Part shown: positions 31,716 through 52,034 of the stretch, piece after piece
Position numbering within the stretch: the stretch's first letter is position 1
How the letters are laid out: the number at the start of each line of letters is the position of its first letter
NCBI RefSeq assembly: GCF_004010955.1
Contig: NZ_CP025227.1
Coordinates: 2,294,001 to 2,358,000, forward strand
Length of the DNA: 64,000 nucleotides
Source: Actinomyces wuliandei
GTDB taxonomy: Bacteria > Actinomycetota > Actinomycetes > Actinomycetales > Actinomycetaceae
Direction of reading: 5' to 3'
The notes under the pieces: model-generated
What the model was told of the DNA's origin: nothing
What the model saw: the letters and a program-made list of their open reading frames with translations, nothing else
The model's database searches: none
Program-made: the position numbers and the translations under genes

Positions 31716-31934
31716 TGCACATCTTCAACCTGGTGGCGCGACAGCCGTGTCCTGCAATCATGCGGAAAGATGCTGAAAGATCCCGAAAGACCATCCTCGA
31801 GACAGGACTCTGGATGCTGAAGATGTGCGCCAGAGAGTGCGTTGCACATCTTCAGCACCTAAGCGAAAGCCGCTCCCTTGGCAGGGCAAGGATCTGGCCT
31901 CCACCAGAAGACCCAGGTGGCTTGAAGATGTGCA
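31716..31934. promoter_or_regulatory. Four-site phased motif array upstream of lldP
   Basis: TGCACATCTTCA at 31716 (+), TGAAGATGTGCG at 31818 (-), TGCACATCTTCA at 31843 (+) and TGAAGATGTGCA at 31923 (-). Start-to-start steps are 102, 25 and 80 bp. The same alternating +,-,+,- layout with a 25-bp middle step recurs at 47477-47728 and 51827-52034. The last site ends 293 bp before the lldP start. A looping operator is the favoured explanation. Confidence 0.7.
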
Positions 31935-32226
31935 GCAGGGTGAGTGGCAGCGACAGGGCACCTGCACCAGACGCGCCCACGTTGCGGGGCAGCCGACGCA
32001 ATCCCGTGACAACGTGACGACAACATGGCACCATCGGTGCACACCGTACGACCACCGGCCCGGTCGGCCCCGGCTCTGCAGCCCTGGCCCAGAAGCCCGT
32101 CCCGCCCCGGCTCCGGTTCAGTCCGGTGTCTCCTCGGACGGCACCGTCCGCCGGGAGGCGCACCACCAGCGCCGTCCACGGACACACCGTCTGGCACGAC
32201 CACGCACCAGACCTGGAGAGCACGCA

Positions 32227-33915
32227 ATGACGCCCCTCACCATGCCGGTCCTGCAGCTCGCAACCTCCTTCACCCCCTCCACCACCGCTGTCGGTAGCAA
32301 TGTCTTCCTCACGGCCCTGGTCGGGCTGGCCCCACTGATCCTCTTCTTCGTCCTCATGGGGGCCTTCAAGGTGCCCACCCACTGGTGCTCCCTCATCTGC
32401 CTGGGGGTCTCCGCCCTCCTGGCAGTCGTGTGCTTCCGCATGCCAGTGGGGATGACGGCCCTGTCCGCCACGCAGGGGCTGGCCATGGGGTTCGTCCCCA
32501 TCATCTACATCATCATCGCGGCTGTGTGGCTCTACAACCTCACCGAGGTCTCGGGCCGCTCCCGGGACCTGAGGGCTGTGTTCAACACGATCGGCAAGGG
32601 CGACCAGCGCGCCCAGGCGCTGATCGTGGCCTTCTCCTTCTGCGGGCTGCTGGAGGGCCTGGCCGGGTTCGGGGCACCAGTGGCGATCACCGCCGCGATG
32701 CTCCTGGTCCTGGGGCTGCCCAGGATCAAGGCGGCGCTGCTGACCATCGTGGGCAACTCGATCTACGTGGGCTTCGGGGCGATGGCGATCCCGGTGACGA
32801 CGGCCGCCAACCTGGGCGGGGGCGAGGACCCGGCCGTGGTCGCCACGTTCATGGGCCGCTTCACCTGGCTCATGTGCGTGCTCATGCCCTTCATCCTGCT
32901 GTCCGTGCTCGACGGGGCACGCGCCCTGCGCCAACTGTGGCCCCTCGCCCTGGTCGCCGGGCTGGCAACCGGTGTGGGGCACTTCCTGTCCCCCTCGGTG
33001 TCCTACGAGCTCACCAGCGTCATCGCCGCCCTCCTGGGCTTCGCCGCCTCCTACCTGTTCCTTCTGGTGTGGACGCCGAGCACGCCGCAGGAGTACCGCT
33101 CCGAGGTGGCGGAGCAGGACCGGCCGGACCGTGAGCGCGTCGTCCTGGCCCTGCTGCCCTACGTGCTGGTGGTGGTGATCATCGCCGTCACCAAGCTGTG
33201 GCGGGTCGGCGTGGACCTGCGCGAGGTCCTGGCCTCCACCGACGTCGCCGTCCAGTGGCCGGGGGTGTACGGGTCCCTGCTGACCCCCTCCGGCGAGGCC
33301 TCCCAGTCGGCGGTCTACACGCTGCAGACCCTGTCCAACCCCGGGACGTGGATCTTCCTCACGGCGGTCATCGTGACCCTGGTGTACGCCGCACGCTCCT
33401 CGGGGGGCCTGTTCCCGATGACCGCCGCACGAGGGTTCCGTGCCCTGCCGGAGACCTGCTACAACCTGCGCCTGTCGATCCTGACGATCGCGACGGTCAT
33501 GGCCCTGGCCTACGTCATGAACTTCTCCGGACAGACCTCTGCGGTGGGCGTGGCCCTGGCCACGGCTGGCGGGGCCTTCGCCTTCCTGTCCCCGGTCCTG
33601 GGCTGGATCGGCACGGCGGTGGCGGGGTCGGCCACCAGCGCTGGCGCGCTCTTCGCCAACCTCCAGGCCACGGCAGCCCAGGGGGCGGACCTGGACCCCC
33701 GGCTCCTGCTGGCGGCCAACACCATCGGCGGCGGGCTGGGCAAGATCGTCTCCCCGCAGAACCTGGCCGTGGTGACCACCGCCGTGGACTCCCCCGGCTC
33801 GGAGCCGGAGATCCTGCGCAAGGCGGCCCCGTACTCGGTGGGCCTGCTCCTGCTCCTGTGCGTACTGGTGCTGGCCGCCTCCCAGGGGTGGCTGGGCGGT
33901 TACACGCCCGCCTGA
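32227..33915 (+). CDS. lldP: L-lactate permease
   Basis: Proton-coupled lactate importer of the LctP family. 562 residues with about 12-14 spans. Recognisable segments include AFSFCGLLEGLAGFGAPVA (the family signature), GNSIYVGFGAMAIPV, MNFSGQTSAVGVALA and the C-terminal NTIGGGLGKIVSPQNLAV. ATG at 32227 is set by the family N-terminus. It works with lutABC about 14 kb downstream to use lactate, and both are preceded by the phased motif array. Its last third (from 33413) is repeated at 38054-38556 by the tandem duplication. Confidence 0.94.
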   Translation: MTPLTMPVLQLATSFTPSTTAVGSNVFLTALVGLAPLILFFVLMGAFKVPTHWCSLICLGVSALLAVVCFRMPVGMTALSATQGLAMGFVPIIYIIIAAVWLYNLTEVSGRSRDLRAVFNTIGKGDQRAQALIVAFSFCGLLEGLAGFGAPVAITAAMLLVLGLPRIKAALLTIVGNSIYVGFGAMAIPVTTAANLGGGEDPAVVATFMGRFTWLMCVLMPFILLSVLDGARALRQLWPLALVAGLATGVGHFLSPSVSYELTSVIAALLGFAASYLFLLVWTPSTPQEYRSEVAEQDRPDRERVVLALLPYVLVVVIIAVTKLWRVGVDLREVLASTDVAVQWPGVYGSLLTPSGEASQSAVYTLQTLSNPGTWIFLTAVIVTLVYAARSSGGLFPMTAARGFRALPETCYNLRLSILTIATVMALAYVMNFSGQTSAVGVALATAGGAFAFLSPVLGWIGTAVAGSATSAGALFANLQATAAQGADLDPRLLLAANTIGGGLGKIVSPQNLAVVTTAVDSPGSEPEILRKAAPYSVGLLLLLCVLVLAASQGWLGGYTPA

Positions 33916-34120
33916 GGCGCGGGCGGGCGCGTACCGACTGCGACCCTCCGGCACCCGCTGGCCACCCCCGGCACCTGGCGCCCTGGTGGTCGTGTGGTTG
34001 CGCACACCCAGGGGCGCGTCTTCCCTGGCGATCTCACGGTGCCCGGCTGCCAGCACTCCAGAAGAATGTTGACTAGATCTCAAGACCAACATAGTGGGAC
34101 GCAGCGACCAGCACGTCACC

Positions 34121-34126
34121 TACAGT
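34121..34126 (+). promoter_or_regulatory. -10 element for a probably leaderless small operon
   Basis: TACAGT ends 7 bp before the GTG start of the WXG100-like gene, which has no ribosome site. This spacing puts the transcript start at or beside the start codon, typical of leaderless actinobacterial mRNAs. The same element is present in copy 2 at 38762-38767. Confidence 0.45.
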
Positions 34127-34133
34127 AAGTTCC

Positions 34134-34442
34134 GTGAGCTACGATCTTGAGATTCGTTTCGACGTGCTGGCGCATACTGCTTCCAGGCTGGACCAGGAGC
34201 ACGACACCCTCTCCGACTCGCCAACCAGCTGCCTGGTGAGCGCCCAGGAGGCGACCTCCGGGTTCCCGGCAGCCTTCAACGGCTCCTTGTTCAACCTGGC
34301 GGACGAGCACCGCAGCGTGCTCGAAGACCTTGACACGGTAGCAGCGGGCATCCGGACAGCCTCAGACTACTTCGAGCTCACCGAGGAGGACATCGCCGCC
34401 TCCGCCAGGCACCTCCTGCGAGAAAGCTGGTTGCGGCCATGA
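34134..34442 (+). CDS. WXG100-like small helical protein (copy 1)
   Basis: 102 residues, predicted two-helix hairpin with the turn near GFPAAFNGSLF; F48-N-G50 stands where WXG100 proteins have W-x-G. The size, predicted fold and position directly before a larger WXG protein match small partners of type VII (ESX-like) secreted proteins. GTG start, no ribosome site, -10 box just upstream. Its stop overlaps the next ATG (ATGA). No ESX secretion machinery gene is in this window, so secretion is inference. Confidence 0.6.
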   Translation: MSYDLEIRFDVLAHTASRLDQEHDTLSDSPTSCLVSAQEATSGFPAAFNGSLFNLADEHRSVLEDLDTVAAGIRTASDYFELTEEDIAASARHLLRESWLRP

Positions 34443-35776
34443 CTACGACCGTCACGCTGTCGGCTGCGGCGTCCTTCACCCCGGAGCCTTACTACCAGGC
34501 CGCTTTTCGCTTGAACTCACAGGGGCGCACCGCCCAAGACGCCGCGCACGGGATCGTCAGCGCCAAGACGACGGCTGCCGAGGGGTGGAAGGGCAGGGCC
34601 GCAGCAGCCTTTGCAGCACGCGCCACCTCAGTAGCAGGCACGGTAGAGGGGCTGGCCACCAGCCTCATACAGCATGCCAACCTGCTGGAGTGGTATGCAA
34701 AGGCCAAGAACACCGCCTGCCGAAGAGCGGTAGATGCCGCGCAGCAGATGGAGGCTGCGGGTTTCGAGGTCGCGGACGACTGGACGCTGTCCCTGTCGGC
34801 GGCTCAGCAGCAGGCTACCGGGCAAGGTTTCCTCCTGACCCAGATGGCCGCCATGCAGACGACGCTCAACGCCTTCGCCCAAGCGATCACCCTGGTGGAC
34901 ACCCAGGCCACGGCCCAGCTGGCCTCTACAGCACCTACTGCGCCCATGTCGCCACAGGAGGCCCCATACACCACCGCCAATGGCTACACGACCGGGGAGC
35001 CCCCGGACCGGACCATCAAATTTGACGACGATTTCCCATTCGGCTCCAAGAGGGGGACCGCCACCGTCGAGGACGAGCTCTCCTGGCTCCGGTGGGAGGC
35101 GATGCTGCGAGGAGCCCAGGCGCTGCGCCCCGACCTCGACGACGCTCTGCCCATGTACGAGCACTACCGGGACGCCAGCGGCACACCTATGACCTTCGAC
35201 TACGAGGAGGGGTACCGGGAGGACACCTCGATCCGCAAAGAGGTTGACGGAGAGCTGAACGAGACCATCACGGCAGCCAACGAGCTCGTCGAGAATGGCT
35301 ATACCGACACCAAGTTGCACTCCCCTATACGTCAGGGCGATACCACCACGGACAACTGGTCAAAAACCATCGGTCAGCACCACTACTACAGCGACTCCAC
35401 ACTCAGAGTTGAGGGTGACACGGTGACACTGACAACGACAGTCACAGCAAGAGACCGATGGAACTTCAACAACAACATGGCCGACAAGGCCACAGGTATC
35501 CCTGACGCCGAAAACGGCCGCTTTGAGGAGCTAGGCTGGGCGCGGAGTTTTGACACGAGCGGGACCCTCACCCGAACGGTGTCGTGGAAGGTCGGGGAGG
35601 AGCCGCCCCAGCTCGGGGACGGCTCCGGCCAGGAGCCAGGCGACTCGCACGACGATGAGTCCCGGGACCGCAACGACTGGCGCGGCGGGTGGGACAACGG
35701 TGGAGGCCGCTACCCCCGCCACGAGCCCGGTGGCGGCGACCAGGCCAACCGCTACCCTGACGGCAGGCAGTACTGA
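34439..35776 (+). CDS. 445-aa WXG-domain protein with unknown C-terminal domain (copy 1)
   Basis: N-terminal helical region (about 1-165) with W50-K-G52 in AAEGWKGRAAAAF, typical of WXG/LXG-type secreted proteins. A linker is followed by a mixed domain (about 205-388) with many aromatic and acidic residues: EHYRDASGTPMTFDYEEGYR, GQHHYYSDSTLRVEG, and DRWNFNNNMADKATG followed by LGWARSFDTSGTL. The tail 389-445 is Gly/Asp/Arg-rich and disordered. The layout is that of a polymorphic secreted effector, but I do not recognise the C-terminal family and no activity is assigned. Coupled by ATGA to the gene before it. Copy 2 encodes the same protein. Confidence 0.65.
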   Translation: MTTTVTLSAAASFTPEPYYQAAFRLNSQGRTAQDAAHGIVSAKTTAAEGWKGRAAAAFAARATSVAGTVEGLATSLIQHANLLEWYAKAKNTACRRAVDAAQQMEAAGFEVADDWTLSLSAAQQQATGQGFLLTQMAAMQTTLNAFAQAITLVDTQATAQLASTAPTAPMSPQEAPYTTANGYTTGEPPDRTIKFDDDFPFGSKRGTATVEDELSWLRWEAMLRGAQALRPDLDDALPMYEHYRDASGTPMTFDYEEGYREDTSIRKEVDGELNETITAANELVENGYTDTKLHSPIRQGDTTTDNWSKTIGQHHYYSDSTLRVEGDTVTLTTTVTARDRWNFNNNMADKATGIPDAENGRFEELGWARSFDTSGTLTRTVSWKVGEEPPQLGDGSGQEPGDSHDDESRDRNDWRGGWDNGGGRYPRHEPGGGDQANRYPDGRQY

Positions 35777-35789
35777 GGAGGTTGCGTCG

Positions 35790-36047
35790 ATGGTGACCGG
35801 CCGACTTCGAACCGACACCGCTGCGCTTCTGCCACTCATTCCGGGCCTACGAGGTGACGAGCCACGCCGGTGGATTGTCTGCGATGACTCCGGCAACGGC
35901 CTACCAGGCCCGGTCACCACACGGACCCACGCCCTGGTGACAGCCAAGGGCGTCCTTGCCAGAAAGCCTGCAGGCTACGCCGACACCCCGGCCTGCCTAC
36001 CAGCAGGCATCCCGTCCGTCCTTGGAGCAGACACCTCCCCGCCATGA
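35790..36047 (+). CDS. Small hypothetical protein, 85 aa (copy 1)
   Basis: ATG at 35790 follows GAGGAGG by nine bases and is 13 bp after the 445-aa gene. The product opens MVTGRLRTDTAALLPLIPG and has WIVCDDSGNGLPG in the middle. It has no signal peptide or membrane span. Family unknown. Position within the WXG operon suggests an accessory or immunity role, which is inference only. Confidence 0.5.
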   Translation: MVTGRLRTDTAALLPLIPGLRGDEPRRWIVCDDSGNGLPGPVTTRTHALVTAKGVLARKPAGYADTPACLPAGIPSVLGADTSPP

Positions 36048-36087
36048 AGGACCGGCAGCCATCTAGCATTGGGGACCAGGAATCACC

Positions 36088-36183
36088 ATGTCTCCAACCT
36101 TTGCGGCGCTCGCTGACAGGCTCATCCCTGTACACCGCTTTGCACCCGCTGAGACTAAGAAAAAGAGGAAGACCTGGACATGA
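36088..36183 (+). CDS. 31-residue micro-ORF coupled to the lipoprotein (copy 1)
   Basis: ATG at 36088 after an ACCAGGAA site; the product starts MSPTFAALADRLIP and ends in the basic run ETKKKRKTWT. Its TGA overlaps the lipoprotein ATG (ATGA), so it may act as a translational coupler or leader peptide rather than a functional protein. A competing frame from 36044 overlaps it and is less convincing. Confidence 0.35.
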   Translation: MSPTFAALADRLIPVHRFAPAETKKKRKTWT

Positions 36184-36743
36184 GAAAACACACGAGACAC
36201 GGACCCCTCAGCACAGCAACCGCCTGCGCCGTCCTCCTGACGGGGTGCTCCGTCCTGCCCCTCCCCGGCCAGGAGGAGCCGCAGGACGACCGCTTCGCCG
36301 ACTTCACCCAATACGTACCAGATGAGCTGGAGGTCCTTGATGACACCACGTTCGTCCAGGATCTTATTCCAGGAGCCCAGGCGTCACAGGCGCACTACGT
36401 CATCCAGCATCGCTACCGAAACGCCCAAGACACACGGCTGCCGGAGCCTGATCGTCCCTACTGGTTCCACGCCGTCGTCTCCGTCAGGCCAGCCACCACC
36501 CAGGCCCTCGACGACGCCTCCACAGGGACAGCGGCCCTCCTGCCACCCGTCCACCCCGACCTCCACCACCACGTCCCCCACCACTGCGCCTTCACCACCG
36601 TCCCCGCCCAGGACGCCAACCAGATCCTCGACACCACCAACGCCACCCTCGAAGGAGACTCAGAACAATTCACCCTCGACGAGCTCGCCGTCTCCACCAG
36701 CTGCAACCTCATCATCCTCACCGGCACAGGAACCTCCTCCTAA
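36180..36743 (+). CDS. Secreted lipoprotein, variable allele A (copy 1)
   Basis: 187 residues. Lipoprotein signal peptide with lipobox L-T-G-C (Cys23) after the hydrophobic stretch ATACAVLL. The mature part has RFADFTQYVP, then a variable block (residues 47 to about 85), then an invariant C-terminal domain starting RLPEPDRPYWFHAVVSV with Cys in HHCAF and STSCNL that may pair. ATG overlaps the micro-ORF stop. Nothing identifies its function. As the only surface-anchored member of the WXG operon, and the only one that differs between the copies, it may be an immunity or recognition protein. Confidence 0.65.
   Translation: MRKHTRHGPLSTATACAVLLTGCSVLPLPGQEEPQDDRFADFTQYVPDELEVLDDTTFVQDLIPGAQASQAHYVIQHRYRNAQDTRLPEPDRPYWFHAVVSVRPATTQALDDASTGTAALLPPVHPDLHHHVPHHCAFTTVPAQDANQILDTTNATLEGDSEQFTLDELAVSTSCNLIILTGTGTSS
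36320..36432. other. Divergent block in the lipoprotein gene, allele A
   Basis: 113 bp that match the corresponding 110 bp of copy 2 (40961-41070) only weakly, while the sequences on both sides look the same. At protein level the two alleles share only scattered residues (a PG, an A-H, a V-Q and an R pattern), so they are homologous but old variants. Confidence 0.9.
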
Positions 36744-36797
36744 CTCCACGCACGGCAACCCCATCCTGACCCCCTGGAGCCGGGGAGAATCGGCTGC

Positions 36798-36899
36798 TGC
36801 ACATCTTCAACCGACATCAACACGCCCACTGCCAGCGGACTGGCACCCTCACGCCGGAGCCCCACCACTCCGGCCGCAAGACAGACCCGAAGATGTGCG
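36798..36899. promoter_or_regulatory. Two-site phased motif upstream of DeoR (copy 1)
   Basis: TGCACATCTTCA at 36798 (+) and CGAAGATGTGCG at 36888 (-), 90 bp start to start. The second site ends 46 bp before the DeoR start codon. Suggests autoregulation if DeoR is the protein that binds the motif. Confidence 0.6.
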
Positions 36900-36945
36900 C
36901 CCGTAGCCAGCTGCGCGCAACCGCCTGCGGGCGCACCATGGAGAT

Positions 36946-37869
36946 ATGGGTAACGACGATGTCACCACCCCTCAGCCCTCCTCGTCCCCGACTACCTCGT
37001 CTCCAGCCACTTCGCCCTCGACCACGCCGACGTCCACCTCAGAGCCGTCAGCGAACCCCCCGCCAGCCAGCTCAACAGCCTCTGCCACTGCCACCACAGG
37101 TCCGGTGGGCAGCGCCCGTGACCGCCGTGAGGTCCTGCTGGCCCTCATCCGCGAGCATGGCACGCTGGCTGTCTCCGACCTGTCCACCCAGTTCGGCGTC
37201 TCCCAAGAGACCGCCCGGCGTGACGTGCGCGCCCTGGAGGACCGGGGCCTGGTCACCCGTTCCTACGGTGAGGTCACCGCTGTGGACGTCTCCACCTTCG
37301 AGACCGACCGCGCCTTCCGGGAGACTCACCAGACCGAGGAGAAGCTGAGAATTGCCGCCACCGCCAACAGGTACGTCGACACTGCGGAGACCATCTTCCT
37401 CGACGAGGGCTACCTACCCCTGCTGGTCGGGCGGGCACTGAGCGTGGAGCGCGACCTCACCATCATCACCACGTCCCTTCCTACAGCCATGGAGATGAGC
37501 GAGCGTCCCCGCACCCGGGTCATCAGCGTCGGTGGGCGGGTACGACGCACCACCATGGGGGTCGTCGACTTCTGGGCTCTGGGCACCCTGCGGCAGATGA
37601 CCCCGGACCTGGCTTTTGTCGGCGCAAACGGTGTCAGCGAGGACGGCTGGCTGTCCACCCCTGACCCTGCTGTCGCCTCCGTCAAGGAGACCGTCATTGC
37701 CTCGGCCCGGCGCAGCGTCTTCGTGGGAGGCCATGAGAAGTTCGGGCGCCAGACATTCACCCGCTTCGCCCACGTGCGGGAGATGGAGGTGATCCTGACC
37801 GGCCACGAGCTACGCTCCACGACGGCGCAGCGCCTGTCGCTCCTGGGCACCAAGGTGGAGCGGGTCTAG
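36946..37869 (+). CDS. DeoR-family regulator with Ser/Thr/Pro-rich N-terminus (copy 1)
   Basis: 307 residues. Residues 1-58 are low-complexity Pro/Ser/Thr. HTH at about 60-110 includes LAVSDLSTQFGVSQETARRDVRALEDRGLV. The DeoR sensor domain follows, with IFLDEGYLPLLVG, ISVGGRVRRTTMG and LAFVGANGVSEDGWL. ATG at 36946 has only a GGAG close by. Candidate binder of the phased motif, since two sites lie just upstream and its genomic partners are lldP and lutABC; this is inference. Confidence 0.82.
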   Translation: MGNDDVTTPQPSSSPTTSSPATSPSTTPTSTSEPSANPPPASSTASATATTGPVGSARDRREVLLALIREHGTLAVSDLSTQFGVSQETARRDVRALEDRGLVTRSYGEVTAVDVSTFETDRAFRETHQTEEKLRIAATANRYVDTAETIFLDEGYLPLLVGRALSVERDLTIITTSLPTAMEMSERPRTRVISVGGRVRRTTMGVVDFWALGTLRQMTPDLAFVGANGVSEDGWLSTPDPAVASVKETVIASARRSVFVGGHEKFGRQTFTRFAHVREMEVILTGHELRSTTAQRLSLLGTKVERV

Positions 37870-37897
37870 GTCCGGTGCCACGGCCACAGGTCATAGA

Positions 37898-37934
37898 GGC
37901 CGGGGAGCACCCCCTCGCGTGAGGAGGCGGGGCC
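37898..37934. terminator. GC-rich 37-bp hairpin repeat after DeoR (copy 1)
   Basis: One unit of an imperfect inverted repeat (CACCCCCTC GCGT GAGGAGGCGGGG core) between convergent DeoR and the DUF6545-like gene end. Copy 2 has two units 61 bp apart (42536-42572, 42597-42633). Likely terminator; the copy-number difference looks like recombination between the units. Confidence 0.5.
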
Positions 37935-37974
37935 ACGTACCGGGGTCTACGAGATCGAAGTCCGTCTCGTGCCC

Positions 37975-38053
37975 CTAGCGTGTGGGTGCGGGGTAGTAAG
38001 GGGCCAGGGCCAGGCGCAGCTCGTAGAGCTCGCGCAGGGAGGCGCTGACCTCG
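37975..38053 (-). pseudogene. 3' fragment of the DUF6545-like membrane protein gene
   Basis: Matches the last 25 or so codons of the gene at 42674-43765 (ending LALAPYYPAPTR) and is cut at 38053 where it joins lldP sequence. It is a by-product of the tandem duplication and has no promoter or start. Confidence 0.85.
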
Positions 38054-38556
38054 TCCCGATGACCGCCGCACGAGGGTTCCGTGCCCTGCCGGAGACCTGC
38101 TACAACCTGCGCCTGTCGATCCTGACGATCGCGACGGTCATGGCCCTGGCCTACGTCATGAACTTCTCCGGACAGACCTCTGCGGTGGGCGTGGCCCTGG
38201 CCACGGCTGGCGGGGCCTTCGCCTTCCTGTCCCCGGTCCTGGGCTGGATCGGCACGGCGGTGGCGGGGTCGGCCACCAGCGCTGGCGCGCTCTTCGCCAA
38301 CCTCCAGGCCACGGCAGCCCAGGGGGCGGACCTGGACCCCCGGCTCCTGCTGGCGGCCAACACCATCGGCGGCGGGCTGGGCAAGATCGTCTCCCCGCAG
38401 AACCTGGCCGTGGTGACCACCGCCGTGGACTCCCCCGGCTCGGAGCCGGAGATCCTGCGCAAGGCGGCCCCGTACTCGGTGGGCCTGCTCCTGCTCCTGT
38501 GCGTACTGGTGCTGGCCGCCTCCCAGGGGTGGCTGGGCGGTTACACGCCCGCCTGA
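38054..38556 (+). pseudogene. 3' fragment of lldP (copy 2)
   Basis: Repeats the last 165 or so codons of lactate permease (from MTAARGFRALPETCYN to the stop) but lacks the first two thirds. An in-frame ATG at 38059 has no ribosome site. Created by the tandem duplication; not expected to make a working permease. Confidence 0.9.
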
Positions 38557-40417: not shown

Positions 40418-40430
40418 GGAGGTTGCGTCG

Positions 40431-40688: not shown

Positions 40689-40728
40689 AGGACCGGCAGC
40701 CATCTAGCATTGGGGACCAGGAATCACC

Positions 40729-40824: not shown

Positions 40825-41381
40825 GAAAACACACGAGACACGGACCCCTCAGCACAGCAACCGCCTGCGCCGTCCTCCTGACGGGGTGCTCCGTCCTGCC
40901 CCTCCCCGGCCAGGAGGAGCCGCAGGACGACCGCTTCGCCGACTTCACCCAATACGTACCCGAGCCGCTGAAAGCCCAGACGTCTCTAAGCTCAGTGACC
41001 CAACGCATGCCAGGCATCACCGCCACAGAGGCACACTTTGTCGCACAGTACAGGGTCAGCAAGAGCGAGTCACGGCTGCCGGAGCCTGATCGTCCCTACT
41101 GGTTCCACGCCGTCGTCTCCGTCAGGCCAGCCACCACCCAGGCCCTCGACGACGCCTCCACAGGGACAGCGGCCCTCCTGCCACCCGTCCACCCCGACCT
41201 CCACCACCACGTCCCCCACCACTGCGCCTTCACCACCGTCCCCGCCCAGGACGCCAACCAGATCCTCGACACCACCAACGCCACCCTCGAAGGAGACTCA
41301 GAACAATTCACCCTCGACGAGCTCGCCGTCTCCACCAGCTGCAACCTCATCATCCTCACCGGCACAGGAACCTCCTCCTAA
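40821..41381 (+). CDS. Secreted lipoprotein, variable allele B (copy 2)
   Basis: 186 residues. Same signal peptide and lipobox Cys23 as copy 1 and the same C-terminal domain from RLPEPDRPYWFHAVV onward, but residues 47 to about 84 are a different allele (PEPLKAQTSLSSVTQRMPG and TEAHFVAQYRVSKSES). It is one residue shorter than copy 1. The mosaic points to gene conversion or recombination with a diverged donor. Function unknown; specificity or immunity variation is a hypothesis. Confidence 0.65.
   Translation: MRKHTRHGPLSTATACAVLLTGCSVLPLPGQEEPQDDRFADFTQYVPEPLKAQTSLSSVTQRMPGITATEAHFVAQYRVSKSESRLPEPDRPYWFHAVVSVRPATTQALDDASTGTAALLPPVHPDLHHHVPHHCAFTTVPAQDANQILDTTNATLEGDSEQFTLDELAVSTSCNLIILTGTGTSS
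40961..41070. other. Divergent block in the lipoprotein gene, allele B
   Basis: 110 bp aligned with 36320-36432 of copy 1. Sharp borders: identity ends after ...ATACGTACC and resumes at CACGGCTGCCGG. Confidence 0.9.
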
Positions 41382-41435
41382 CTCCACGCACGGCAACCCC
41401 ATCCTGACCCCCTGGAGCCGGGGAGAATCGGCTGC

Positions 41436-41537
41436 TGCACATCTTCAACCGACATCAACACGCCCACTGCCAGCGGACTGGCACCCTCACGCCGGAGCCC
41501 CACCACTCCGGCCGCAAGACAGACCCGAAGATGTGCG
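41436..41537. promoter_or_regulatory. Two-site phased motif upstream of DeoR (copy 2)
   Basis: Same two sites as 36798-36899, shifted by 4638 bp: TGCACATCTTCA at 41436 (+) and CGAAGATGTGCG at 41526 (-). Confidence 0.6.
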
Positions 41538-41583
41538 CCCGTAGCCAGCTGCGCGCAACCGCCTGCGGGCGCACCATGGAGAT

Positions 41584-42507
41584 ATGGGTAACGACGATGT
41601 CACCACCCCTCAGCCCTCCTCGTCCCCGACTACCTCGTCTCCAGCCACTTCGCCCTCGACCACGCCGACGTCCACCTCAGAGCCGTCAGCGAACCCCCCG
41701 CCAGCCAGCTCAACAGCCTCTGCCACTGCCACCACAGGTCCGGTGGGCAGCGCCCGTGACCGCCGTGAGGTCCTGCTGGCCCTCATCCGCGAGCATGGCA
41801 CGCTGGCTGTCTCCGACCTGTCCACCCAGTTCGGCGTCTCCCAAGAGACCGCCCGGCGTGACGTGCGCGCCCTGGAGGACCGGGGCCTGGTCACCCGTTC
41901 CTACGGTGAGGTCACCGCTGTGGACGTCTCCACCTTCGAGACCGACCGCGCCTTCCGGGAGACTCACCAGACCGAGGAGAAGCTGAGAATTGCCGCCACC
42001 GCCAACAGGTACGTCGACACTGCGGAGACCATCTTCCTCGACGAGGGCTACCTACCCCTGCTGGTCGGGCGGGCACTGAGCGTGGAGCGCGACCTCACCA
42101 TCATCACCACGTCCCTTCCTACAGCCATGGAGATGAGCGAGCGTCCCCGCACCCGGGTCATCAGCGTCGGTGGGCGGGTACGACGCACCACCATGGGGGT
42201 CGTCGACTTCTGGGCTCTGGGCACCCTGCGGCAGATGACCCCGGACCTGGCTTTTGTCGGCGCAAACGGTGTCAGCGAGGACGGCTGGCTGTCCACCCCT
42301 GACCCTGCTGTCGCCTCCGTCAAGGAGACCGTCATTGCCTCGGCCCGGCGCAGCGTCTTCGTGGGAGGCCATGAGAAGTTCGGGCGCCAGACATTCACCC
42401 GCTTCGCCCACGTGCGGGAGATGGAGGTGATCCTGACCGGCCACGAGCTACGCTCCACGACGGCGCAGCGCCTGTCGCTCCTGGGCACCAAGGTGGAGCG
42501 GGTCTAG
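41584..42507 (+). CDS. DeoR-family regulator (copy 2)
   Basis: Identical 307-residue regulator to the one at 36946, with the low-complexity N-terminus, HTH (VSDLSTQFGVSQETARRDV) and sensor domain (ISVGGRVRRTTMG). Two intact copies would double the dose of a regulator that may control lldP and lutABC. Confidence 0.82.
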   Translation: MGNDDVTTPQPSSSPTTSSPATSPSTTPTSTSEPSANPPPASSTASATATTGPVGSARDRREVLLALIREHGTLAVSDLSTQFGVSQETARRDVRALEDRGLVTRSYGEVTAVDVSTFETDRAFRETHQTEEKLRIAATANRYVDTAETIFLDEGYLPLLVGRALSVERDLTIITTSLPTAMEMSERPRTRVISVGGRVRRTTMGVVDFWALGTLRQMTPDLAFVGANGVSEDGWLSTPDPAVASVKETVIASARRSVFVGGHEKFGRQTFTRFAHVREMEVILTGHELRSTTAQRLSLLGTKVERV

Positions 42508-42535
42508 GTCCGGTGCCACGGCCACAGGTCATAGA

Positions 42536-45651: not shown

Positions 45652-45853
45652 GGGTGCGTGGCGGGCACCCTCCAGGACCCGGGGAGACGGTCCCTCCACT
45701 TCCCCACAGGCACCACGACAGGCTCTCTGCAGGGACCATGGCACCATGGCAGAGCCCCCGGCAGGACAGGTGCCCGCCATCCCCTTCTCACACCCAGACA
45801 ACGCACGCCTCCAACCACGCACTCTACTCACCGCTGACGAAAGCGAGACCATC

Positions 45854-47353
45854 ATGACCACCCACTCTCCCACCACCCCCGGCCAGCCACTGGCCGAGTC
45901 ACCGCTGGCACCGGGCTACGACCGCTCCGCCGTCACCACCGGCATCGTCCACATCGGCGTGGGCGGCTTCCACCGCTCCCACCAGGCCATGTACGTTGAC
46001 CGCCTCATGCGCCAGGGAAAGGCAGCGGACTGGGGCATCTGCGGCGTCGGGCTGCTGCCCGGTGACGCCCGCATGCGAGACGCCCTGGAGGGCCAGGACC
46101 ATCTGTACACCCTCGTGCTCAAGCACCCTGGCGGTCGGCGCGAGCCCGCGGTCATCGGATCGGTCCACCGCTACCTCTTCGCCCCTGACGACCCCGAGGC
46201 CGTCCTAGGACTCATGGCCGCGCCCACGACCCGCATCGTGTCGCTGACTGTGACCGAGGGCGGCTACAACATCGACGACGCCACCGGGGCCTTCCGCACC
46301 GACTCCCCCGGGGCACTCCACGACGCGGCCCACCCGGGGCAGCCCACGACAACCTTCGGCTACGTCGTGGAGGCGCTGCGCCGTCGCCGTGAGGCCGGGA
46401 CCCAGCCCTTCACCGTCATGAGCTGCGACAACCTGCCCGGAAACGGCAAGGTCGCCAGGACCGCCGTCGTGTCCCAGGCGCGGATGAGCGACCCCGAGCT
46501 GGCCGGGTGGATCCAGGACAACGTCTCCTTCCCCAACTGCATGGTGGACCGCATCACTCCCGCGACCACGCAGACAGACATTGAGGAGGTCCGCACCCTG
46601 GAAGGCCTGGACGACGCCTGGCCCGTCGTCGCCGAGCCCTTCACCCAGTGGGTCCTGGAGGACGCGTTCCCCGCCGGGCGTCCCGCCTTCGAGGAGGTCG
46701 GCGCCCAGCTGGTGGAGGACGTGGTCCCCTACGAGCTCATGAAGCTGCGCCTGCTCAACGCCGCCCACCAGGGGCTGGCCCACTGGGGCAGGCTGCTGGG
46801 GATGGAGTACGCCCACACGGCTGCCGCCGACGCCGACATCGCCGCGTGGGTGCGCGCCTACCTGCAGCGCGAGGCGCGGCCGCGGCTGCTTCCCGTACCT
46901 GGCATCGACCTGGACACCTACATCGACACGCTCTTCGAGCGCTTCACCAACGAGGCCATCGCGGACACCCTGCTGCGGCTGGCACAGTTCGGCCCCTCCG
47001 GGATGCCGAAGTTCGTGCTGCCGACCGTGCGAGACAACCTGGCAGCCGACGGGTCACTACGGCTGGGTGCGGCCATGTGCGCCGCGTGGTCGCTGGGAGT
47101 GCTCGGCACCGACGAGAACGGGCAGGAGATCCCGGTGGCCGACGACCTGCGGCCACTCGCTGAGAGGCAGGAGGCGGGCGAGGACCTCAGCTTCATCGGC
47201 AACCGGGAGGTCTTCGGGGACCTGGCCGACGACGAGCGGTTCCGCACCACATTCCTTGAGGAGCTGGCTGCCCTGCGCCGCGAGGGCGCTCGTGCCCGCA
47301 TGCGGGCGCTGGTGGACGAGGGGAGCGAGGGGAGCAAGGGGGACAACGCCTAG
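45854..47353 (+). CDS. Mannitol/arabinitol-type long-chain polyol dehydrogenase
   Basis: NAD-dependent oxidation of a sugar alcohol to a ketose. 499 residues. Rossmann start IVHIGVGGFHRSHQAMYVD, substrate region SCDNLPGNGKVAR, and the catalytic signature MKLRLLNAAHQGLAHWG with K-x4-N-x2-H. ATG at 45854 is chosen from the family N-terminus; the ribosome site is weak. Located 202 bp after the permease and probably part of the same unit. D-mannitol or D-arabinitol are the family candidates. Confidence 0.85.
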   Translation: MTTHSPTTPGQPLAESPLAPGYDRSAVTTGIVHIGVGGFHRSHQAMYVDRLMRQGKAADWGICGVGLLPGDARMRDALEGQDHLYTLVLKHPGGRREPAVIGSVHRYLFAPDDPEAVLGLMAAPTTRIVSLTVTEGGYNIDDATGAFRTDSPGALHDAAHPGQPTTTFGYVVEALRRRREAGTQPFTVMSCDNLPGNGKVARTAVVSQARMSDPELAGWIQDNVSFPNCMVDRITPATTQTDIEEVRTLEGLDDAWPVVAEPFTQWVLEDAFPAGRPAFEEVGAQLVEDVVPYELMKLRLLNAAHQGLAHWGRLLGMEYAHTAAADADIAAWVRAYLQREARPRLLPVPGIDLDTYIDTLFERFTNEAIADTLLRLAQFGPSGMPKFVLPTVRDNLAADGSLRLGAAMCAAWSLGVLGTDENGQEIPVADDLRPLAERQEAGEDLSFIGNREVFGDLADDERFRTTFLEELAALRREGARARMRALVDEGSEGSKGDNA

Positions 47354-48025
47354 TCGGCATCTCTGCGACAGGTCAGGGCGGCTCCGGGGCGTGTCATCTC
47401 CCTGGGGCCGCCCCGGCCGAGCCGGAGCCGCGCCACGTCATCCATCTACCTCAGTAGATCGGGGTACCTGGGTAGTTGCACATCTTCAAGCCGCTGGCTG
47501 GTACCGCCATGGTCAGCCCGACCCGTCATACCGGGAAACCATGAACTGCTCTGCCTCGGCACCAGACCCAAGATGTGCAACAGTCTCGGTTCTGCACATC
47601 TTGGGTTCTCAGCACCCGCTGCGAGCTCACCTCAGATTCCTGAGGATCGTTGGAATAACGTCCCTTTGCTGTCGATCTCCTCGTGCGGCACCCCCATGCC
47701 CGCCTCGGCACCAGACCCAAGATGTGCAGCAACCGGGAGGGGGTGCGCGCCACGAGGACATGTCACGTCAGAAAAAGCGCAGTCCTCGCTTTCTTAATCA
47801 CGCACGGATCACGGCCCGTGCCCTACCCCGCCAGCATCCTCCCCGCAGCGCGGGCAACAGGAACTTCCCGGCGCCATGACACCAGTCCGACGCCCTTTGC
47901 TCCCCGGACCGCCAGCCTCCAGCCACCACACCGCGCGCCACTCCCTTTCAGCGAATACGGTAGGGACGTTCTCGTCACCCTCCCGCCAGCCATCTTCCCG
48001 CCAACGACGTCGTGGAGGTTATTCC
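47354..48025. other. 672-bp spacer holding the lutABC motif array
   Basis: No gene supported. Contains the four-site phased motif array at 47477-47728 and the presumed lutABC promoter between there and 48025. A 20-bp stretch (GCCTCGGCACCAGACCCAAG) is repeated exactly at 47553 and 47702, each leading into a motif copy. Confidence 0.5.
47477..47728. promoter_or_regulatory. Four-site phased motif array upstream of lutABC
   Basis: TGCACATCTTCA at 47477 (+), CCAAGATGTGCA at 47568 (-), TGCACATCTTGG at 47593 (+) and CCAAGATGTGCA at 47717 (-). Steps are 91, 25 and 124 bp. The last site ends 297 bp before the lutA start, nearly the same distance as for lldP (292). Confidence 0.7.
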
Positions 48026-48829
48026 GTGCGCATCGCTCTCTTCGCCACCTGTATCGGGGACTCGATGTTCCCCCAGGCCCCGCAGGCCACCGTCGCCATC
48101 CTCGAGCGCCTCGGGCACGAGGTGGTCTTCCCCGAAGGGCAGGTGTGCTGCGGCCAGATGCACGCCAACACCGGCTACTTCAAGCAGGCCTCCGCCCTGG
48201 TCGCCAACCACGTGCGGACCTTTGAGCCGGTCCTGGACGGGGAGTGGGACGCCGTCGTCGTCCCCTCGGGCTCCTGCACAGGCGCCACCCGCCACGAGCA
48301 GGCCCTGGTCGCCGAGCACGTGGGCGACCCGTCCCTGGCCCGACGCGCCACCGAGGTCGCCGCCAGGACCTACGACCTGGCCGAGCTGCTCGTCGACGTC
48401 CTGGGAGTCACCGACGTCGGCGCCTACTTCCCCCACCGGGTCACCTACCACCCCACCTGCCACTCGCTGCGCATCACCAAGGTCGGCGACCGACCCTACC
48501 GACTGCTGCGCGCCGTCGAGGCACTCACCCTGCTCCCCCTGCCCGAGGCGGAGGTCTGCTGCGGGTTCGGCGGCACCTTCTCCATGAAGAACCACGAGAC
48601 CTCCACCGCGATGCTGGCGGACAAGGTCTCCAACGTCATGTCCACCCAAGCGGAGGTGCTGTGCATGGGCGACTACTCCTGCCTCATGCACGTGGGCGGG
48701 GGACTGTCCCGCATCAACTCCGGGGTGCGGGTCATGCACCTGGCGGAGATCCTCGCCTCGACCAAGGACCAGCCCTTCCACGGCAACGTCTCCTTCGCCG
48801 CAGACACCCAGGAGGTCACGTCACGATGA
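48026..48829 (+). CDS. lutA: Lactate utilisation protein LutA
   Basis: Cys-rich (Fe-S) oxidoreductase subunit of the LutABC L-lactate oxidation complex. 267 residues with the two CCG-type motifs: EGQVCCGQMHANTGY and EAEVCCGFGGTFSMKNH. GTG start at 48026 seven bases after GGAGG. Its stop overlaps the lutB ATG (ATGA), so lutA and lutB are translationally coupled. Confidence 0.94.
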   Translation: MRIALFATCIGDSMFPQAPQATVAILERLGHEVVFPEGQVCCGQMHANTGYFKQASALVANHVRTFEPVLDGEWDAVVVPSGSCTGATRHEQALVAEHVGDPSLARRATEVAARTYDLAELLVDVLGVTDVGAYFPHRVTYHPTCHSLRITKVGDRPYRLLRAVEALTLLPLPEAEVCCGFGGTFSMKNHETSTAMLADKVSNVMSTQAEVLCMGDYSCLMHVGGGLSRINSGVRVMHLAEILASTKDQPFHGNVSFAADTQEVTSR

Positions 48830-50445
48830 GCCGCGTCTTTCTTGGCATGCCTGCCCGTCCCAGGCCCACCACCCAGGAGCCCCGTACCGGCGGCTGGCGC
48901 ACCACGGTCACTGTTCCTGCCGACACCCTACGCTGGGGAGAGACCTTCCCTCAGGCCGCGCACAAGACCCTCCAGAACACCCAGCTGCGCTCCAACCTGG
49001 GCCGGGCCACCCGCACCATCCGAGGCAAGCGGGACATGCGGGCGGCGGAGATGCCCGACTGGGAGCAGCTGCGCGAGGCGGCCAGCGCGGTCAAGAACGA
49101 GGTCATGAGCCACCTGCCCGACTACCTGGAGCAGTTCGAGGCCAACGTCACCGCGCGCGGCGGCGTGGTCCACTGGGCTCGCGACGCCGCCGAGGCTAAC
49201 CGGATCGTCACCAGCATCATCAAGGCCAAGGGGGTGGACGACGTCGTCAAGGTCAAGTCGATGGCCACCCAGGAGACCAACCTCAACGAGCACCTCAAGG
49301 CCCAGGGCGTCACCGCCCACGAGACCGACCTGGCCGAGATGATCGTCCAGCTCGCCGACGACATGCCCTCACACATCGTGGTGCCCGCGATCCACCGCAA
49401 CCGCTCCGAGGTGCGCGGGATCTTCCTGGACCGCATGGAGGACGCCCCCGCCGACCTGTCCGACAACCCGGTCGAGCTGGCCGGGGCAGCGCGCGCCCAC
49501 CTGCGCAGGAAGTTCCTCCACGCCTCCGTGGCCGTCTCAGGCACCAACATGGGCATCGCCGAGACCGGGACCGTCTCGATCTTCGAGTCCGAGGGCAACG
49601 GGCGCATGTGCCTGACCCTGCCGGACACCCTCATCACCCTCATGGGCATCGAGAAGATCGTCCCCCGCTTCCAGGACGTGGAGATCTTCTCCCAGATCCT
49701 GCCGCGCTCGGCCACAGGAGAGCGCATGAACCCCTACACCTCGATGTGGACGGGAGTCACCCCGGGCGACGGCCCCCAGGAGTTCCACCTCGTCCTCATG
49801 GACAACGGGCGCACCAAGGTCCTGTCCGACCCGGTGGGGCGCGAGGCCCTCCACTGCATCCGCTGTGGCGCGTGCATGAACATCTGCCCGGTCTACCAGC
49901 ACACCGGCGGCCATGCCTACGGGTCGGTCTACCCCGGCCCCATCGGCGCGATCCTCACCCCGCAGCTGACCCAGGGGCTGGCCGACGACGACCCGGTCCA
50001 CACCCTGCCCTTCGCCTCCTCCCTGTGCGGGGCCTGCGGGGAGGCCTGCCCGGTCAAGATCGACATCCCCACGATCCTCATCCACCTGCGTGCCCGCACC
50101 GTGGAGGCCAAGCGCAAGGTCGTGCCGGACATGTGGGACGTGGCCATGAAGGCCACCGCGCCGGCGATGAGTGACGGCCGCCTGTGGTCGCTGGCCCAGC
50201 AGGCGGTCAAGGCCTCACGGCTGGTCAGCAGGGACGGCCGGATCGGTGCCCTGCCTTTCCCGGCCTCGCAGTGGACCGGCGCGCGCGACATCCCCGAGGC
50301 GCCACCGGAGAGCTTCCGCCAGTGGTGGGCACGCACCCACCCGACATCGGGGAGGAGACCCGGTGAGGCTGCCGCCTCCGTGACCGGGTCGGCCGCAGGA
50401 GGGTCGGCCACCGCACCCCAGCCAGCTTCCCGGGAGGACCAGTGA
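48826..50445 (+). CDS. lutB: Lactate utilisation protein LutB
   Basis: Iron-sulfur subunit, 539 residues. An LUD domain (about 80-330, with AETGTVSIFESEGNGR) is followed by a ferredoxin domain with two 4Fe-4S motifs: CIRCGACMNICPVY and CGACGEACPVKI. The C-terminal helical part ends in a Ser/Ala-rich tail. ATG at 48826 is preceded by GGAGG. Accepts electrons within the LutABC complex during lactate-to-pyruvate oxidation. Confidence 0.95.
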   Translation: MSRVFLGMPARPRPTTQEPRTGGWRTTVTVPADTLRWGETFPQAAHKTLQNTQLRSNLGRATRTIRGKRDMRAAEMPDWEQLREAASAVKNEVMSHLPDYLEQFEANVTARGGVVHWARDAAEANRIVTSIIKAKGVDDVVKVKSMATQETNLNEHLKAQGVTAHETDLAEMIVQLADDMPSHIVVPAIHRNRSEVRGIFLDRMEDAPADLSDNPVELAGAARAHLRRKFLHASVAVSGTNMGIAETGTVSIFESEGNGRMCLTLPDTLITLMGIEKIVPRFQDVEIFSQILPRSATGERMNPYTSMWTGVTPGDGPQEFHLVLMDNGRTKVLSDPVGREALHCIRCGACMNICPVYQHTGGHAYGSVYPGPIGAILTPQLTQGLADDDPVHTLPFASSLCGACGEACPVKIDIPTILIHLRARTVEAKRKVVPDMWDVAMKATAPAMSDGRLWSLAQQAVKASRLVSRDGRIGALPFPASQWTGARDIPEAPPESFRQWWARTHPTSGRRPGEAAASVTGSAAGGSATAPQPASREDQ

Positions 50446-51095
50446 TGGACGCACGCACCGCCGTTCTTGCCCGCGCCCGCGATGCCGTCTCACGCTCCCA
50501 GCGAGGCCCCGCGCGCCCGGTCCCGCGCGACTACATCCGCGTGGGTGAGCACGAGCCCGGGTCGCCGCCAGTCGTGGCCGACATGGTGAGCAAGCTCGAG
50601 GACTACGACGCCCTGGTGCGTACCGAGGACACGGACTCCGGTATCGCCCAGGCTATTGACGAGCTCCTGGGCGAGGCCAGGGACGTCGTCGTGCCCACGG
50701 GCCTGCCGCAGGCCTACAAGGAGGCCGCCGCGCGCCGGGGCCGTACCCTGCACGAGGACTCGCGCGAACGTCCCATTGCCACTCTCGGTCTGGACGCGAT
50801 CGACGCGGTGGTGACCTGCTCGCGCCTGGGCATCTCCATCTCGGGGACTATCGTGCTCGACGGCGAGCCCGACCAGGGCAGGCGCGCCATCTCCCTGGTG
50901 CCCGACCGCCATGTGTGCGTGCTGGAGCGCGAGACGATCGTGCCCACGGTGCCACAGGCTGTCGATGTCCTCAGCCACTACCCCACGCGCCCGATGACCT
51001 GGATCGCCGGCCCCAGCGCCACGGCCGACATCGAGCTCGTACGCGTCCAGGGCGTGCACGGCCCGCGCAACCTCGGGGTGGTCATCGCCCACTGA
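50445..51095 (+). CDS. lutC: Lactate utilisation protein LutC
   Basis: LUD-domain subunit of 216 residues. Family core: GLDAIDAVVTCSRLGISISGTIVLD, then ALERETIVPTVPQAV-like text (here VLERETIVPTV) and TWIAGPSATADIELVRVQGVHGPR at the C-terminus. GGAGG at 50433-50437 serves either ATG 50445 (spacing 7, preferred) or GTG 50442. Overlaps the lutB stop. Last gene of lutABC; convergent with vapC. Confidence 0.94.
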   Translation: MDARTAVLARARDAVSRSQRGPARPVPRDYIRVGEHEPGSPPVVADMVSKLEDYDALVRTEDTDSGIAQAIDELLGEARDVVVPTGLPQAYKEAAARRGRTLHEDSRERPIATLGLDAIDAVVTCSRLGISISGTIVLDGEPDQGRRAISLVPDRHVCVLERETIVPTVPQAVDVLSHYPTRPMTWIAGPSATADIELVRVQGVHGPRNLGVVIAH

Positions 51096-51126
51096 GCCAG
51101 CCCTGAGTGCGTGCCGCTGAGACGGC

Positions 51127-51540
51127 CTAGGCGGCCAGGAGCGGGTTGACAGTTCTAACCCCGCGCAGGACGCTGCCGTGCGCCAAGTCCTCGGTCCACA
51201 GCTCACCGCAGCCGGACTCGACAGCCGCCTCAAGCACCATGGCGTCCCAGACAGAGAGCTGGTGCCTGCGAGCAGTCACCACCGCCCGCTCAACGAGTGC
51301 GCGGTCGGCGGGGACGACCCCCAGGTCAGCGACCCGACGGACGACACGCCCGGCCTCCTCAGGCGGCCACACGGGCCTCAGCTTGCGGGTGAGGACGACA
51401 AACAGCTCAAGCATCACCTGGGTGCTCACGGTGAAGTCGCGGTGGCTGGCCAGAGCGGCTCGGGCCGCTGCCTGCTTGGACGGGGAGGCGCTGTCAAAGG
51501 TGTAGGCAAGGATATTGGTGTCCAGGAAGACCCTAGACAT
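51127..51540 (-). CDS. vapC: PIN-domain toxin, VapC-like
   Basis: 137-residue ribonuclease-type toxin. The first acidic residue is in VFLDTNILAYTFD; further acidic positions are in QVMLELFVVL, SVWDAMVLEAAVESG and LWTEDLAHG. ATG at 51540 overlaps the antitoxin stop by 8 bp, the usual VapBC arrangement. The open frame extends upstream in the antitoxin region but has no support. Confidence 0.85.
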   Translation of the reverse strand: MSRVFLDTNILAYTFDSASPSKQAAARAALASHRDFTVSTQVMLELFVVLTRKLRPVWPPEEAGRVVRRVADLGVVPADRALVERAVVTARRHQLSVWDAMVLEAAVESGCGELWTEDLAHGSVLRGVRTVNPLLAA

Positions 51541-51763
51541 CGTAAAGGTCCTCGCGACTCCACCCGCGCCCGTGCTCACCGCTGCGTGCTGGCCTGGCAT
51601 CCGCCAGGGCAAGCAGCGACTCCACGACGTCCTGCTGGTCAGGACCTGCGTAGCGCTCCAGCATGTCGCTGAGGTACTTGTTGACGGACTCATTGCGCTC
51701 AAGCGCGCGGATCCGGGCGCGGCGAAGGACGTCAGCATCGACGGAGAGAGTCAGCGTAGCCAC
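51533..51763 (-). CDS. vapB: Ribbon-helix-helix-type antitoxin, VapB-like
   Basis: 76 residues. MATLTLSVDADVLRRARIRA is the DNA-binding beta strand and first helix of an RHH fold. The acidic C-terminus (SREDLYDV) would cover the toxin. GTG start at 51763 with no ribosome site but a -10 box (TACACT) six bases upstream, implying a leaderless transcript. Coupled to vapC. Confidence 0.8.
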   Translation of the reverse strand: MATLTLSVDADVLRRARIRALERNESVNKYLSDMLERYAGPDQQDVVESLLALADARPARSGEHGRGWSREDLYDV

Positions 51764-51765
51764 GA

Positions 51766-51790
51766 GTTCAGTGTAGCACTGGTTCAGTGC
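51766..51790 (-). promoter_or_regulatory. vapBC promoter and operator
   Basis: On the minus strand the -10 TACACT occupies 51775-51770. Beside it the palindrome GCACTG-GTT-CAGTGC (51776-51790) and a direct repeat GTTCAGTG at 51766 and 51782 (16 bp apart) cover the promoter. This is where a VapBC complex would be expected to autorepress. Confidence 0.55.
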
Positions 51791-51826
51791 GACACAGAAG
51801 CCTGACGGCCCTGTCGGCAGCCCCGC

Positions 51827-52034
51827 TGCACATCTTCAGGGTGTCAGCCACGCCGCCAAGCCCGCTGCTGCGCACAGTCACGTCGGTCGCGTGGCTGGCA
51901 GCGTCCTGAAGATGTGCAGCACGCACTGCATTGCACATCTTGGACCTCACCAGCCCCTCTTCGGTACGCGCCCAGGCCCACCATTCTGCCGTTCTCCACT
52001 GGTCACACCTGCCCGGACCCGGTGAAGATGTGCA
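51827..52034. promoter_or_regulatory. Four-site phased motif array upstream of vapBC
   Basis: TGCACATCTTCA at 51827 (+), TGAAGATGTGCA at 51907 (-), TGCACATCTTGG at 51932 (+), TGAAGATGTGCA at 52023 (-). Steps are 80, 25 and 91 bp. Lies in the 335-bp spacer between vapB and the end of lysS; nothing else was found in that spacer. Confidence 0.7.

Follow-up and report, generated by a model that had tools for sequence, protein, structure and literature searches.

Inverted motif arrays in the window

The 64-kb window analysed here (C1:2294001-2358000 of the 3.108-Mb genome of Actinomyces wuliandei, referred to as G000) carries, in the regions between its genes, repeated elements composed of a 12-bp end site (A), its inverted counterpart (A') and, between the two, a near-palindromic central site of 20 bp (B, about CCGCGGAATCATGCGG). 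In their usual form, two A-B-A' units are joined by a gap of 13 bp, and the distance separating the A start from the B centre takes the same preferred values on both arms, namely 30, 41, 51, 62.5, 73 and 85 bp, hereafter called the ladder. The end sites had been described in a first-pass annotation as 16 sites, 14 of them distinct, strictly alternating between the plus and minus orientations. A scan of the window at up to 2 mismatches reproduced both the alternation and the 16 places (14 distinct), and returned an extra unpaired match at 6586, with 2 mismatches. The start-to-start steps listed for the individual arrays (102, 25 and 80; 90; 91, 25 and 124; 80, 25 and 91) are exact. At up to 3 mismatches the window contains 56 matches, versus 25.7 +/- 5.5 in shuffled sequences.

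The first two-unit array (31716..31934) lies 5' of a lactate-permease gene of the LctP family (TIGR00795, above cut-off), with A sites at 31716 (+), 31818 (-) and, following the 13-bp gap, 31843 (+) and 31923 (-). The B site of its first unit (31750..31769, plus strand, TCCTGCAATCATGCGGAAAG) scores 15.2, its dyad lying at distances of 42 and 72 bp from the two A starts; the B-like site of the second unit (31876..31895, plus strand), with a modest score of 7.7, falls on the ladder at 41 and 51 bp. Another two-unit array (47477..47728) is found 5' of lutABC-like genes, characterized by a LutB family match above cut-off and a LUD domain, with A sites at 47477 (+) and 47568 (-), a gap of 13 bp, and A sites at 47593 (+) and 47717 (-). 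In its first unit the B-like match (47521-47540) is weak (score 4.6) and on the ladder, and in the second unit (47630-47649) it scores 11.9 and is off the ladder, at 45 and 91 bp. The last array (51827..52034) separates a PIN-domain gene from lysS (lysine--tRNA ligase, above cut-off), with A sites at 51827 (+), 51907 (-), 51932 (+) and 52023 (-) and the same gap of 13 bp. Both of its B sites are on the minus strand: that of the first unit (51866..51885) scores 10.3 and has its dyad at 41 and 51 bp, measured from the A starts, and that of the second (51972..51991) scores 9.8, with the dyad at 51 and 52 bp. The PIN-domain protein (51127-51738, minus strand) has no NCBIfam match, and a short antitoxin-like frame read by eye just upstream of its gene fits the vapBC assignment made earlier.

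A one-unit element (36798..36899, A sites at 36798 and 36888) is located upstream of a gene for a DeoR/GlpR-type regulator, a call that relies on profile matches below the curated cut-offs. Its step of 90, previously noticed as one base off the common class, is ordinary length jitter; yet the best B-like match of this unit (36856-36875, score 7.9) is off the ladder, at 32 and 70 bp. An exact copy of the element, identical over 102 bp, is present at 41436..41537 (A pair 41436/41526), within a segmental duplication (36475-37894 / 41113-42532, offset 4638) that carries the regulator gene together with the upstream element; equal-length open reading frames (ORFs) suggest that the duplication extends to about 34134/38775. 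Altogether, the best B-like match is on the ladder in 5 of the 7 distinct units of the window, one of these being the weak match scoring 4.6.

End sites, central site and helical spacing

Across the whole of G000 the 12-mer gives 84 + 86 matches at up to one mismatch, versus 1 + 0 for the same pattern read backward. The exact 10-mer TGCACATCTT occurs 91 + 92 = 183 times, with 0 + 0 occurrences of the backward control, and 181 of the 183 sites fall into 65 clusters, placing the element at about 65 positions in the genome. In other words, the original observation is confirmed, and is larger than first described: spacings are non-random at the genome scale and occurrence inside genes is rare. Under strict counting, with no more than one mismatch allowed in each pair of 10-mer ends, 114 arrays were collected, 59 from G000 (44 double, 15 single) and 55 from Actinomyces bowdenii DSM 15435 (48 double, 5 single and 2 triple), so that the number of units is two in 92 arrays, one in 20 and three in 2. 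These arrays provided 210 distinct units, 103 from G000 and 107 from A. bowdenii.

The inner step, invariably 25 in the window, is nearly constant genome-wide: among 96 pairs of units less than 40 bases apart, the gap is 13 bp in 94 and 14 bp in 2. The edges of the 13-bp gap read GCR...YGC, so the complete end site is about GYTGCACATCTTCRG. Start-to-start unit lengths, in 10-mer coordinates, cluster near 71, 82, 93, 104, 115, 126, 137 and 160, with a best period of 11.04. Contrary to the earlier proposal, the lengths do not strictly belong to one class modulo 11, as they show a jitter of 1-2 bp and include some in-between values.

The central site had been missed, the interiors having been described as unshared. 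This holds for the arms, which in the TGCACATCTT family of G000 and A. bowdenii are unrelated between copies outside A and B, tandem copies excepted; it does not hold for the interiors as a whole, as the 20-bp central motif is common to the units. Shared internal sequence, named at the outset as a sign of a mobile element, is therefore present, but as a 20-bp site and not as the body of such an element. Specifically, a position-blind motif search in both species returned B, with 20-mer log-likelihoods of 971 versus 73 and 304 versus 79 for shuffled sequence, and a consensus of about CCGCGGAATCATGCGGATC, looser in G000.

The arrangement of the three sites follows the ladder closely. In the 189 of 210 units with a B score of at least 6, the 21 units below that score being left out of the count, 364 of 378 arms lie within 1.5 bp of a ladder value, whereas 1050 trials with shuffled interiors produced a B match 90 times, with 41 of the resulting 180 arms on the ladder. 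The slope is 10.82 bp per step (bootstrap 10.75-10.88), and the lengths of the left and right arms vary independently. When the B matrix of A. bowdenii was applied to the 103 units of G000, 59 scored at least 6, and 51 of these had both arms on the ladder. The orientation of B within doublets is mixed, an observation that led to a circle-insertion model for the doublets being abandoned.

Inheritance and recurrence in Actinomyces

Array positions can be followed between species. Among the loci sampled in G004, 11 of 20 have an array whose neighbouring genes match those of an A. bowdenii array, and in 10 of these 11 the arrays can be aligned, arms included. For 17 units from 10 locus pairs (L133/L079, whose arrays align poorly, was left out), identity between A. 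bowdenii and G004 is 96.0% in A, 90.0% in B, 81.4% in the arms and 84.1% in the flanks (A versus arm, p=3e-15; B versus arm, p=2e-4). Whole units have been gained or lost between orthologous arrays at L132/L077 and L125/L070. In the comparison of G000 with A. bowdenii, flank mapping indicates about 8 arrays at common places (L020, L027, L101, L111, L114, L116 and two in L118); a stricter neighbour script finds 6 such pairs, and 9 pairs between G004 and A. bowdenii, adding L089/L063. In the 7 aligned pairs of G000 and A. bowdenii the arms show no clear homology and their lengths differ by roughly whole steps. The flanks of two G000 loci (L018 and L100) map close together in A. bowdenii, where the array is absent, and in G015, which a one-gene tree places as sister to G000, what by eye looks like a decayed unit is present at a locus with an ABC-ATPase gene. 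One conserved array (L027, L042) lies between a gene for an AlkZ-like DNA glycosylase and an amidohydrolase gene.

Among the 49 genomes of the genus, TGCACATCTT is abundant in G000, G003 and G004 alone, with 5 + 9 copies in G015 and 0-5 in the others; the architecture recurs elsewhere with other end motifs. At the ABC-ATPase locus of G032, for example, a different inverted repeat is found, TGTCCAAATCTGCCACAAAGG (family F3), whose core is present 97 + 92 times in G033 and 1-11 times in G005, G009, G014 and G032, and the F3 units inspected have a B-like centre. Among 30 loci inspected by eye, one per genome, about 23 have B surrounded by inverted ends of other kinds, and three families with different ends coexist in G005. 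The tail of A is CTTCA in three species and GGGAG, TCATC, CGGAG or others elsewhere, with B, the 13-bp gap and the ladder constant; GGGAG tails are also found in G000 itself, in at least one array (L295).

B, searched as CGGAATCATGCGG with up to one mismatch, has at least 13 copies in 31 of the 49 genomes (only 7 in G000) and reaches that number in just 2 of the 163 genomes from elsewhere in the family, both belonging to one genus. In these two genomes (genus g29; G076 and G104) the B core has 27 and 36 matches and TGTGCA-N13-TGCACA is absent; their elements may use other end motifs. The junction TGTGCA-N13-TGCACA is found in 24 of the 49 Actinomyces genomes, with up to 57 copies, versus 7 of 164 others, with at most 2. 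The ladder, fixed beforehand, also applies to other species: of 44 B matches scoring above 11, 36 deviate from it by no more than 1 bp, in a set where some loci had been chosen for B and one comes from G000. In loci fetched by the A'-13-A core alone (L274-L294 of Actinomyces, 19 of 21 kept following removal of two repeats), a B match above 11 is present on 23 of 38 sides, 18 of them within 1 bp of the ladder and all 23 within 1.5 bp. Six loci outside the genus yielded one B match above 11, off the ladder, and four genome matches outside Actinomyces (L038, L060, L067 and L075) were set aside as likely chance.

In a few cases, elements with different ends appear to occupy the same position. Candidates are L112 of G000 with an F3 element of G032, L137 of G004 with an F3 element of G032, and an F3 element of G009 with an element of G027, together with the ABC-ATPase locus in G000, A. 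bowdenii, G004 and G032, with hints in G029 and G005. These cases suggest that positions are common to families with different ends, in numbers too small for a claim. At L199 of G032 (about 1498-1640) an F3 end motif shows an apparent 11-bp tandem duplication, AAATCTGCCAC, which shifts the unit length; duplications of this kind are a possible route for changing arm length by a helical step.

A predicted nucleoprotein site and its alternatives

The elements are probably architectural DNA sites, predicted to be bound in helical register by a symmetric protein complex. Each unit would be a DNA-level binding platform of approximate twofold symmetry, in which A and the inverted A' flank B at a distance of whole helical turns on each side, about 30 bp + n x 10.8 bp. 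A protein dimer, or a conserved protein together with a species-specific one, may bind B and the two A sites from the same side of the helix, and the bound complex may bend or loop the arms. Two units joined through A'-13 bp-A would represent the usual complete site, with a role more likely architectural or chromosomal than the control of single promoters. A further possibility is that the elements descend from miniature mobile elements and have been kept because the complex is useful.

This reading follows mainly from the spacing. If the proteins on A and B have to be oriented alike on the duplex, their spacing should be set in helical turns irrespective of sequence, as in the ladder, and the whole-turn spacing of the three motifs points to an undescribed protein assembly gripping all of them on one helix face. 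In particular, the step of 10.8 bp per arm is close to the fitted helical repeats of lac loops in living Escherichia coli, 10.95-11.60 bp in Table 1 of PMC1762422, and such a ladder combined with such a step favours a symmetric complex on A-B-A'. The suggestion already made from the window, that of a multimeric protein holding several sites with unconserved DNA between them, is strongly supported by the sequence pattern once B is included. Selection appears to hold the helical-turn spacing while the sequence between the sites drifts, so the function must lie in the three-dimensional arrangement of the sites on duplex DNA. More tentatively, the elements might represent a new kind of chromosomal nucleoprotein system, in which a conserved B-binding protein and a fast-evolving A-binding protein act on dozens of symmetric whole-turn sites and the tail of A switches between species. 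If this is true, the helical repeat of Actinomyces DNA inside the living cell, about 10.8 bp, is written into these genomes. The diverged arms, well over 100 in number, constitute a natural experiment on helical repeat and on the spacing tolerance of a multi-site complex. Because the end motif differs between species and the centre is constant, comparison across genomes should reveal the binder.

Several results weigh against this interpretation. The best B-like match is off the ladder in 2 of the 7 distinct window units, 21 of the 210 collected units have no B match of score 6, no B match above 11 is present on 15 of the 38 sides of the core-only set in other species, and the length of one G004 unit, which is off the ladder, exceeds that of the corresponding A. 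bowdenii unit by 5 bp. Unit detection needs A matches, which inflates the conservation figure of A. Since the shortest gaps between A and B are only about 10 bp, cooperative binding on the same face without a loop is as likely as looping. Clustering of the neighbouring genes across species revealed no protein family recurring beside the arrays as a cognate factor. Finally, the F1 and F3 families of G005 and G033 have partly homologous interiors, and F3 is at high copy number in G033; this is more like recent spread than a host architecture.

Dispersed bacterial repeats are usually explained as selfish elements or as hairpins. A selfish origin, in which the elements would be mobile units similar to REPINs or to miniature inverted-repeat transposable elements (MITEs), with A as terminal inverted repeats for a transposase acting in trans, B as an internal enhancer and the ladder as the geometry of the transpososome, is unlikely, and is nevertheless to be taken seriously. 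It would account for inverted doublets dispersed between genes, for several families with different ends in one genome, and for the uneven copy number and partly homologous interiors of F3. Against it, a Y1 transposase (PF01797) was found in 0 of the 49 genus genomes, in a search that was positive in 5 of 14 control genomes and did not cover other transposase classes. No target duplication was found in the 114 arrays or in 20 F3 units, taking best-scoring offsets of 0-3 and lengths of 2-10, and the borders of 11 F1 units share only 2-3 bp of similarity within a common A/T-rich border. Equally contrary to selfish spread are the unrelated arms in the family of the window, the inherited positions and the better conservation of A and B relative to the arms. 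No autonomous element was detected at five G000 loci with isolated or extra single sites (L088, L091, L094, L099 and L121), and nothing matched when plasmids were searched with one F1 query and phages with one F3 query. A viral origin was also considered and rejected: in viral contigs the A'-13-A pattern has 0 matches, and the 16-base B core has 16, about chance by our own estimate, with no flanking A seen.

The closest published counterpart is the REPIN/RAYT system, for which the consulted sections of Bertels and Rainey (2011, PMC3116915) describe dispersed intergenic elements, mostly inverted doublets, with conserved ends, a less conserved spacer and preferred spacings of 71 and 110 bp. Inverted doublets of short repeats between genes are likewise found here, whereas a hairpin-forming spacer with compensatory change is not (z about -0.1, compensation examined at B only). 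Unlike REPINs, the Actinomyces elements also have an internal conserved B, a ladder of about 10.8-bp steps, two-unit arrays and a 13-bp gap; since none of the 49 genomes has a Y1 transposase, they do not belong to a REPIN/RAYT system despite the similar layout. With bacterial MITEs they share short length, inverted ends, multiple copies and intergenic location, and F1 and F3, whose interiors are partly shared, look MITE-like. They differ in that no target duplication was found, the interior of the TGCACATCTT family is not shared, and the arrays are inherited in place under constraint.

The genomic placement of the arrays bears on a second alternative, an improbable one, according to which they are operators of a regulon, where a transcription factor loops the DNA of each array and controls the adjacent gene. 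With our own ORF caller, 112 of the 114 arrays overlap no gene by more than 20 bp; the earlier statement that the motifs occur only between genes is correct for arrays, and two isolated single sites (L094 and L099) lie inside ORFs. Helical phasing and this strictly intergenic location would suit operators, as would a somewhat higher frequency of divergent regions (30 of 100 versus 32 of 171), within a three-way comparison that is not significant. Specifically, 55 tandem, 30 divergent and 15 convergent regions were counted for 100 arrays, 14 of the 114 lacking a called gene on one side, versus 117, 32 and 22 of 171 in the background (p=0.06). In tandem regions the array is nearer to the upstream stop codon than to the downstream start in 42 of 55 cases (p=0.003), at a median of 131 bp from that start. 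With orientations not significantly different from the background and a position closer to the upstream stop, the arrays are not placed like promoter operators; moreover, 15 of the 100 are between convergent genes, and the few neighbour genes identified show no common theme. The DeoR-family protein encoded at 36946, earlier put forward as the binder, adjoins one array and its duplicate out of about 65, the others lying beside unrelated genes, and this candidate is not supported. Looped operators such as lac (as documented in Table 1 of PMC1762422) share with the elements the helical register of sites and a repeat near 11 bp in the cell; they differ from elements that occur in dozens, are not centred on promoters, and have three sites per unit with a central dyad.

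Placement also invites comparison with chromosome-organizing sites. Those of Noc, SlmA and MatP are single short palindromes, dispersed in tens of copies like the elements described here. In G000 the arrays decrease in number away from the replication origin, 29, 16, 13 and 7 by quarter (Kolmogorov-Smirnov p=0.001); in G004 the gradient is not significant in the 19 arrays of the one fully listed arm (p=0.31).

Site-specific recombination, with A'-13 bp-A or B as crossover cores and the units as cassettes, is very improbable. Inverted half-sites around a short variable centre and the gain or loss of whole units at L132/L077 and L125/L070 are in its favour; against it, B is in mixed orientation within doublets, the number of units is usually two (92 of 114), and recombination between repeats explains unit loss equally well. 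Finally, a structured RNA element or terminator, in which the 11-bp step would be a turn of an A-form helix, can hardly be upheld: pairing of the inverted A sites could form a stem, B is near-palindromic, and the folding of 20 F3 interiors is somewhat better than that of shuffled versions (mean z -0.8, 10% below -2), but against dinucleotide shuffles the mean z is -0.12 for 60 interiors of G000, -0.15 for 60 of A. bowdenii and -0.33 for 10 of F1, the window has no Rfam match at gathering thresholds, covariation in B is slight (ten pairs were examined in each species, and only two, -3:18 and -2:17 in A. bowdenii, score above every shuffle), and the left and right arms change length independently.

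Among the matches listed in a search of open PubMed Central papers there was no paper on these Actinomyces elements, and the papers containing a motif string were unrelated, judging from their titles and the beginning of their abstracts.

Repeats of other kinds were observed near the ABC-ATPase locus. An inverted repeat, GGCGCGGTTTGAGGATT / GGCGAGCTTTGAGGATT, with a spacing of about 110-120 bp, is present at L162 (about 590-760, G016) and at L170 (about 2840-3000, G006). Long near-perfect hairpins are found at L150 (about 80-190, G022), L158 (about 3350-3450, G021), L167 (about 100-200, G045) and L171 (about 10-150, G007), and are perhaps terminators or other repeats.

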